Shown piece by piece: positions 4,124 to 5,296 of a stretch of 10,886 nucleotides of DNA (position 1 is the stretch's first letter; each line of letters starts with the position of its first letter). The notes beneath the pieces were generated by a model. That model worked only from the letters and a program-made list of their open reading frames with translations. It searched no databases and was not told where the DNA came from. The stretch is from Spirochaetia bacterium. GTDB taxonomy: Bacteria; Spirochaetota; Spirochaetia; Treponematales; Breznakiellaceae. Made by a program: the position numbers and the translations under genes. The stretch lies in the NCBI GenBank assembly GCA_026002265.1, contig BOBG01000069.1, positions 1 to 10,886 of the forward strand. Reading direction: 5' to 3'.

Positions 4124-4888
4124 TTACTTTCCTCTAGTGTGTAAATCTTCAGCGATGGTGTGCAATACAAGCCGGGTTTCCGGCTTTACCGTTGCGATTT
4201 CCTGCACAAAACAGTGTTTTCGCTGAGCAAGTCGAAATGCCGGATCGACTGGCACGCTGTAAATCGTTATCCCGGCAGCCGCGGCTCGAATTGCATCAAG
4301 GGTTTCAGCGTGTTGCTTAATCCGGCCATCAACCGCATTGACAATGATTCGAGTGTGCCGGGGTTTTTCAGTCTCAAACCGGTGCCGTAATGTTACGAGG
4401 TTTTCATTAAAAATCTGCAAGCCGTCAATTGCAAAAGAATCTCCCAGAACCGGCGTTATGATCTCATCCGCGCCCAGAGCTGCTGCTCGTTCAAGAGCGC
4501 CCCAGCCGGGTGAAAGATCAATGACGGTATACTGATAGCCACGCGCGGCAACTTCCTTAAGGAGACGCCGGAAGCAAAAGGGATCGTCTTTTCCCGGTCC
4601 CTCACCGAAAGCTTTCAGTTCTCCGCCAAGTCCGGCACTCGGTAGCAGATCAAGTCCTGTTATTCCGGTTTGCATGATCGCTTGTTTGACCGGTGTGGTG
4701 CCGGTCAAAACATCTGCGAGTTCCACGGTTATCGTATGCGTGCCGATCCAGCTCGTCGCGCTTGCTTGCGGATCCGCATCGATCAGTAACACTGATCCGG
4801 TCAACGAAGCCAGCTCCGCGGCAATAGATACCGCAAGACTCGTTTTGCCGACTCCGCCTTTTTGAAGTGATAGTGCGATTGTTTTCAT
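4124..4888 (-). CDS. parA: ParA-family partition ATPase (254 aa)
   Basis: A deviant Walker ATPase that positions plasmid copies along the nucleoid. Visible motifs are KGGVGKTS at 10-17 with the signature lysine K10, the A' motif LLIDADPQAS (34-43), and Walker B TVIDLSPGWG (121-130). There is no N-terminal helix-turn-helix extension, so it belongs to the short class (ParF/Soj-like), where the partner protein, not ParA, acts as repressor. Start ATG 4888 follows an AAGGGG site with 6-base spacing. It is the first gene of the operon and is followed after one base by the ribbon-helix-helix gene. Its 5' end (about 27 bases) is included in a block that is repeated twice more upstream. Confidence 0.9.
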   Translation of the reverse strand: MKTIALSLQKGGVGKTSLAVSIAAELASLTGSVLLIDADPQASATSWIGTHTITVELADVLTGTTPVKQAIMQTGITGLDLLPSAGLGGELKAFGEGPGKDDPFCFRRLLKEVAARGYQYTVIDLSPGWGALERAAALGADEIITPVLGDSFAIDGLQIFNENLVTLRHRFETEKPRHTRIIVNAVDGRIKQHAETLDAIRAAAAGITIYSVPVDPAFRLAQRKHCFVQEIATVKPETRLVLHTIAEDLHTRGK

Positions 4889-4921
4889 TAAATACCCCTT
4901 CTCATACAGTTTACATTTAAT

Positions 4922-4951
4922 ATGTTATCGTATTCTTAACGTATTTGTCAA
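4922..4951 (-). promoter_or_regulatory. parA promoter, proximal copy
   Basis: On the minus strand a perfect -35 TTGACA (4946-4951) is followed after 18 bases by TAACAT (4922-4927), leaving a leader of about 30 bases before ATG 4888. The -35 and the spacer lie inside the operator dyad, so a bound repressor would occlude polymerase. The same elements occur in the two upstream copies. Confidence 0.6.
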
Positions 4952-4966
4952 TACTTATTCAATACG
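4929..4966. promoter_or_regulatory. Symmetric operator with four half-sites (copy 1)
   Basis: Half-sites CGTATT at 4929 and 4940 and, inverted, AATAC at 4950 and AATACG at 4961 are arranged around one dyad axis (4947.5). Half-sites of the same orientation lie 11 bp apart, one helical turn, as expected for side-by-side binding of ribbon-helix-helix dimers. The site covers the promoter -35, which fits autorepression by the small protein encoded at 3838-4122. Confidence 0.65.
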
Positions 4967-5070
4967 TTTTTACTATAAATGTTAGCTGCACTTAGAAAAC
5001 AAAAATTGAAGTGATAGCGATTGTTTTCATTAAATACCCCTTCTCATACAGTTTACATTTAATATGTTAT

Positions 5071-5108
5071 CGTATTCTTAACGTATTTGTCAATACTTAT
5101 TCAATACG
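5071..5108. promoter_or_regulatory. Operator copy 2 and upstream promoter
   Basis: The same four half-sites occur at 5071, 5082, 5092 and 5103 with identical spacing, again overlapping TTGACA. This copy would drive the 12-codon decoy ORF at 4992-5030 and reads on toward parA. Confidence 0.6.
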
Positions 5109-5210
5109 TTTTTACTATAAATGTAGCTGCACTTAGAAAACAAAAATTGAAGTGATAGCGATTGTTTTCATTAAATACCCCTTCTCATCAGTTTATATTT
5201 AGTATGTTAT

Positions 5211-5248
5211 CGTATTCTTAACGTATTTGTCAATACCTATTCAATACG
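5211..5248. promoter_or_regulatory. Operator copy 3 and distal promoter
   Basis: Half-sites at 5211, 5222, 5232 and 5243 are intact although surrounding bases have diverged (AATACC in place of AATACT). Conservation of half-sites amid nearby change mildly supports function. Confidence 0.55.
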
Positions 5249-5296
5249 TTTTTACTATAAATGTAGCTGCACTTAAAAAGCAAGGGAATACGAAAA

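Follow-up and report, generated by a model that had tools for sequence, protein, structure and literature searches.

The 10,886-bp contig BOBG01000069.1 of a Spirochaetia bacterium (Breznakiellaceae), analyzed in its entirety and herein called the window, carries a tandem array directly before the partition gene parA in which promoter, operator, ribosome-binding site (RBS), and start codon are each present three times (4862 through 5283, minus strand). We lean toward reading this array as the amplified cis site of a type Ib-like partition cassette made of ParA and a small ribbon-helix-helix (RHH) protein; by analogy with type Ib systems, the best interpretation is that the operator doubles as the centromere. 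The initial annotation had described a tandem triplication of a ∼141-bp promoter-operator-start module at this site, and this is borne out by alignment and by Tandem Repeats Finder (period 142, 3.0 copies, 96% matches over 4862 through 5283). The arrangement is real and uncommon, although it falls within a known kind of system, and it has one parallel, independent or shared, in the related locus L205. Unit 1, the most distant from parA (5136 through 5275, by alignment), is followed by unit 2 (4995 through 5135) and unit 3 (4862 through 4994, by Tandem Repeats Finder and alignment), all on the minus strand; on this strand the units start at 5275, 5135, and 4994, and the array ends in the true parA start.

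Every unit contains a promoter-like TTGACA-18-TAACAT (minus strand; unit 1, 5204 through 5233; unit 2, 5064 through 5093; unit 3, 4922 through 4951) with 10 of 12 consensus matches, so that the three TTGACA promoters annotated in series are all recovered as predictions. Shuffles of the same stretch give a mean of 2.5 hits at the looser limit of the tool, and the hexamers alone therefore prove little. The −35 and spacer of the parA promoter are covered by a dyad of four GTATT/AATAC half-sites, two direct and two inverted, which is found in each unit (operator 1, 5211 through 5248; operator 2, 5071 through 5108; operator 3, 4929 through 4966; minus strand). The dyad had been assigned a strict 11-bp register; the spacing is in fact 11, 10, and 11 bp, i.e., a register of 10 to 11. 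The annotated total of 12 half-sites is correct (nine CGTATT/AATACG and three (A/G)GTATT). Because the units lie 140 to 141 bp apart (∼13.3 to 13.4 turns at 10.5 bp), however, these are better seen as three separate, adjacent four-site blocks than as one phased array. The full dyad pattern, allowing up to three mismatches, occurs at these three places in the window and nowhere else, compared with 0 of 200 shuffles. Since the pattern was picked after inspection of the data, a motif-free 5-mer chain test was added; a single unit contains a four-step chain of one 5-mer with 8- to 12-bp steps, a result reached by 4 of 1,000 shuffles. An additional CGTATT at 5292, 44 bp ahead of the first operator, and a GGTATT overlapping every RBS may be due to chance.

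Comparison of the units suggests how the array arose. Units 1 and 2 differ by three substitutions and one 1-nt indel, units 2 and 3 by one 1-nt and one 2-nt indel before they diverge beyond the start codon, and units 1 and 3 are 94.5% identical over 128 bp. Through the operator, unit 2 equals unit 3 except for 1 nt near the edge; its leader and the junction that follows are identical to those of unit 1, and it alone combines its junction with GCTACA. Unequal crossing-over in a two-unit array gives such a middle hybrid, and unit 2 looks like its product. The same features bear on whether an assembler stretched a one- or two-copy locus, a concern given that the contig belongs to a metagenome-assembled genome (MAG; 2.53 Mb, 381 contigs, 82.9% complete) and that 10 99-mers are repeated in the array. 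With three distinguishable units, the middle one a hybrid, a simple assembly loop is unlikely; no 127-mer is repeated, and relative to a version without the middle unit, with its own junction and GCTACA combination, the array has 8 private 21-mers and 202 private 127-mers. We consider an artifact very improbable.

Each copy also carries the RBS and first parA codons, as annotated: GAAGGGG precedes the ATG, and MKTIA follows. The frame of units 1 and 2 departs from that of parA where they differ from unit 3 by 2 nt, and it ends after 12 codons. Both thus end in the same 12-codon open reading frame (ORF), MKTIAITSIFVF, as stated previously (5133 through 5171 in unit 1 and 4992 through 5030 in unit 2, minus strand, read from the sequence), but the residues shared with ParA are MKTIA rather than MKTI only. 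These ORFs are probably by-products of the duplication, carried as passengers. Leader-peptide attenuation was considered and rejected: there is no minus-strand terminator-like site within 4800 through 5400 and no Rfam match at gathering score, and the ATG is missing from the extra unit of L205.

The gene parA (4124 through 4888, minus strand) encodes a Walker ATPase of 254 residues without an N-terminal helix-turn-helix (HTH) extension. The protein starts MKTIALSLQKGGVGKT, matches AAA_31 from residue 1 and CbiA from residue 5, and has its P-loop at residues 10 through 16. A small ParA of this kind is a type Ib trait, as are repeats in direct and inverted orientation ahead of the operon, here in three units. 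A type Ia assignment was rejected, as ParA proteins of that type, in the part of the source available, have ∼300 to 450 residues with an N-terminal HTH (PMC9178275). The adjacent gene (3838 through 4122, minus strand) encodes a small ParB-like protein of 94 residues with a probable RHH fold. As described in the available text of PMC5016525, the small RHH protein of type Ib systems represses the operon and also binds the centromere, where it assembles the partition complex on repeats located upstream of the operon.

By this analogy, dimers of the 94-residue protein would bind the four-half-site dyad over the −35 and spacer and repress parA-parB, and the repressing nucleoprotein complex would be the cargo moved by ParA. 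An ancestral single operator-promoter-start module would have been duplicated in tandem and then raised to three units by unequal crossing-over, the start codons and 12-codon ORFs being carried along passively. One unit with four half-sites over the promoter could suffice; with three, there would be further places for ParB to load and stronger repression, and the plasmid would profit from a larger number of bound dimers and from tighter control. The three promoters and operators might instead only tune expression, setting parA-parB dosage and titrating the repressor while the centromere lies elsewhere. Three promoter-like sites do stand in series with no terminator-like site between 4800 and 5400 on their strand, and additional operator copies will necessarily titrate the repressor, provided that it binds them. 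This explanation is nevertheless quite unlikely, as the centromere of the type Ib systems described in the source text available is situated ahead of the operon and a single protein performs both tasks, and the window offers no second location for the dyad at up to three mismatches.

Several observations weigh against the combined operator-centromere. The 94-residue protein has no credible Pfam hit and no Foldseek match at E ≤ 0.001, its VIA Z remains <5, and its predicted monomer model forms no N-terminal β-strand (a first AF2 model from 10 sequences was poor, with a pLDDT of 57, and was not used). The 6-mer count of a single unit is ordinary, being equaled in 25 of 100 shuffles for exact matches and 60 of 100 with one mismatch. 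In plasmid pSM19035, according to the portion of PMC9499535 available, ParA is activated efficiently only by four or more contiguous repeats, and a pair of triple blocks separated by a gap did not activate fully. That threshold concerns contiguous heptads, whereas the blocks in the window lie ∼100 bp apart; a parS of the pSM19035 type (at least four contiguous 7-bp repeats) was rejected for the array, with half-sites at 11-10-11 bp. Two further points come from relatives: 22 ParA proteins (P0122 through P0143) rank nearer than L205 and fall outside the upstream-DNA comparison described below, and 12 other upstream regions show no unusual helical 5-mer chain, so that a family-wide operator remains a guess.

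Among these 12 regions the lowest values in the chain test were those of L207 (54 of 1,000 shuffles) and the T. saccharophilum plasmid (83 of 1,000). By 6-mer count, 2 or fewer of 100 shuffles equaled L209 (1, exact), L207 (1, with one mismatch), the T. saccharophilum plasmid (0 exact, 2 with one mismatch), and T. succinifaciens (0 exact, due to a poly-T run). In L209, L210, L211, and L214 a likely −10, identified by eye, lies a few bases ahead of the parA ATG, a proximity that suggests leaderless transcripts.

Upstream regions were compared with themselves, initially for 188 parA regions and the best internal repeat only, and then for 203 regions from all sources and every internal repeat (7 hits starting after residue 12, 9 upstream pieces of <250 bases, and 77 duplicates were dropped). 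An internal repeat at E ≤ 1e-3 was present in 15 of the 203, and in two, the window and L199/L205, it extended to within 30 bp of the parA start. That the remaining 201 have no repeat at the start implies that amplification is not generally needed, a further point against the proposed role. The arrangement is unusual by this count, as annotated; less so in that L205, the nearest relative with readable DNA (ParA 63%), has a two-unit version. Its two tandem operator units stand directly before parA, 129 bp apart and 95.8% identical over 96 bp, with GTTACT/AGTAAC half-sites and variants at steps of 10, 11, 9, 22, 8, 11, and 10 per unit; in the last unit alone there is a four-step chain, matched by 10 of 1,000 shuffles. 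In the extra unit the operator and a stretch resembling an RBS are retained, but no ATG is present. No convincing DNA similarity connects the two arrays (best matches 15 bp, E 0.19); either there were two separate duplications, or the half-sites of an old array changed while the array as a whole stayed homogeneous.

These comparisons also bear on an incidental tandem duplication, in which a single operator is functional and the extra copies are recent, roughly neutral, and destined to be lost. Tandem repeats expand readily, the near identity of units 2 and 3 indicates that the last duplication step was recent, and the 201 upstream regions without a repeat at the start fit. All three units, however, retain the four half-site cores, TTGACA, TAACAT, RBS, and ATG, and L205 has an array of its own with another half-site, in which the extra copy lacks the ATG yet retains the operator. 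We regard an incidental origin as unlikely, if the most serious competitor to an operator that is also a centromere. An extension of the latter is similarly doubtful, although slightly easier to entertain: a plasmid lineage of gut spirochaetes may tune centromere strength by tandem copying of the parA operator-promoter-start module, with copy number changing through unequal crossing-over, half-sites turning over, and centromere dose and repressor titration coevolving.

Beyond L205, searches of plasmids gave no match, whether with the small protein against PLSDB plasmids or with the 2-kb array region in distant blastn against plasmids. The top-ranking of the 22 nearer ParA proteins (78%) comes from a contig of 13,017 bp labeled Prevotella sp., and a small-protein relative, P0035 (83%), is listed with a contig also of 13,017 bp. 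Close relatives of ParA or the small protein (P0122/P0035, P0106, and P0130) occur on contigs labeled Prevotella sp. and Candidatus Endomicrobiellum trichonymphae, which reflects either cross-phylum plasmid spread or binning error. ParA matches at E ≤ 1e-40 were found in 9 of 195 genomes of the family and small-protein matches in 7 of 390 genomes of the order, the source genome included in both; a scan of genome contigs returned at least 80 loci, the 80 listed all having 25 to 42% best-segment identity. In viral contigs there were no occurrences of the operator core pattern, 36 stretches from the small-protein alignment of which none was confirmed, no match to the DnaB protein pattern, and, with the ParA alignment, nothing nearer than the L032 contig. 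Phage records gave 69 ParA matches; the best among the 60 listed has 38% identity, and two of the other 9 are at 60 to 80%. A tandem promoter-operator-start array before parA was not found in the portion of the open-license literature covered, which argues only weakly that none has been described.

The repetition of sites on a contig that resembles a plasmid might also point to an iteron origin of replication. The array stands before parA rather than beside a rep gene, however, and its sites overlap the parA promoter. L205 (3709 through 3864), L208 (1987 through 2052), and L215 (3331 through 3417) have separate 22-bp tandem repeats, likely iterons, just upstream of their Rep3 initiator genes. 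The window likewise has a 22-bp tandem repeat at 1006 through 1052 within a three-copy family (∼22 to 27 nt) at 975 through 1055, just beyond the 3′ end of a 324-residue ORF (1146 through 2120). By analogy with the Rep3-linked repeats these are candidate origin iterons, and the origin iterons probably lie outside the array; that the array itself serves as an origin is scarcely credible.

On the minus strand the array is followed by parA, the gene for the 94-residue protein, a DnaB-like helicase gene, and the 324-residue ORF, which has no Pfam match. The DNA is plasmid-like, and its host is probably a gut spirochaete; exact end words of 15, 20, 30, and 50 bases revealed no overlap of the contig ends, and circularity is thus not shown. 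Elsewhere in the window are a DUF4062 protein close to the contig end (110 through 637) and an AAA_15-type ATPase apparently split in two ORFs (9690 through 10241, assigned by Pfam, and 9152 through 9673, judged by eye). A DUF6266 protein (5547 through 6002) is shared with two spirochaete relatives, L207 (2909 through 3307) and L209 (642 through 1653), on contigs that also carry their par genes.

A ParB of the RHH type does not spread along DNA, according to the accessible part of PMC9499535, and the loading of dimers onto a plasmid would therefore be limited by its number of binding sites. In the same text, the authors point to the value of knowing the number of parS sites needed for stability. 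One cassette family here provides a natural series, with most regions having no duplicated unit, L205 two, and the window three, which constitutes a ready test of how many sites plasmid stability needs. Unequal crossing-over is a visible route by which plasmid centromeres could grow. The window adds a small novelty to an established type of plasmid segregation system, its array probably being switch and centromere at once.

Among known systems, the type Ib δ/ω cassette of pSM19035, so far as its available description goes, also pairs a small ParA with a small RHH protein (predicted here), and its binding sites serve as operators and centromere, as proposed here by analogy. Its parS overlaps promoters, and one plasmid carries several separate sites, all of them made up of multiple repeats, as in the window. 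Its repeats are 7-bp heptads, however, and its genes are transcribed separately from different promoters, whereas the window has four half-sites at 10 to 11 bp and repeats the whole promoter-start module before one gene. In the accessible accounts of TP228 parFGH, also type Ib, no tandem promoter-start units were met. The type II parC of R1 parMRC, in the descriptions available, resembles the system proposed here in having an RHH protein that is repressor and centromere binder and repeats that flank the par promoter; its direct repeats are split around one promoter that is not itself repeated. The motor of R1 parMRC is actin-like. The type Ia sopC of the F plasmid, as described in the sources at hand, is a multicopy centromere, as proposed for the array, with twelve repeats, but these are 43 bp long and work with an HTH-type ParB and a large ParA with an HTH; they are not known to contain a promoter or start codon. 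The closest counterpart is L205, which shares tandem operator-promoter-start units directly before parA and differs in having two of them, 129 bp apart, with another half-site and an extra unit without ATG.
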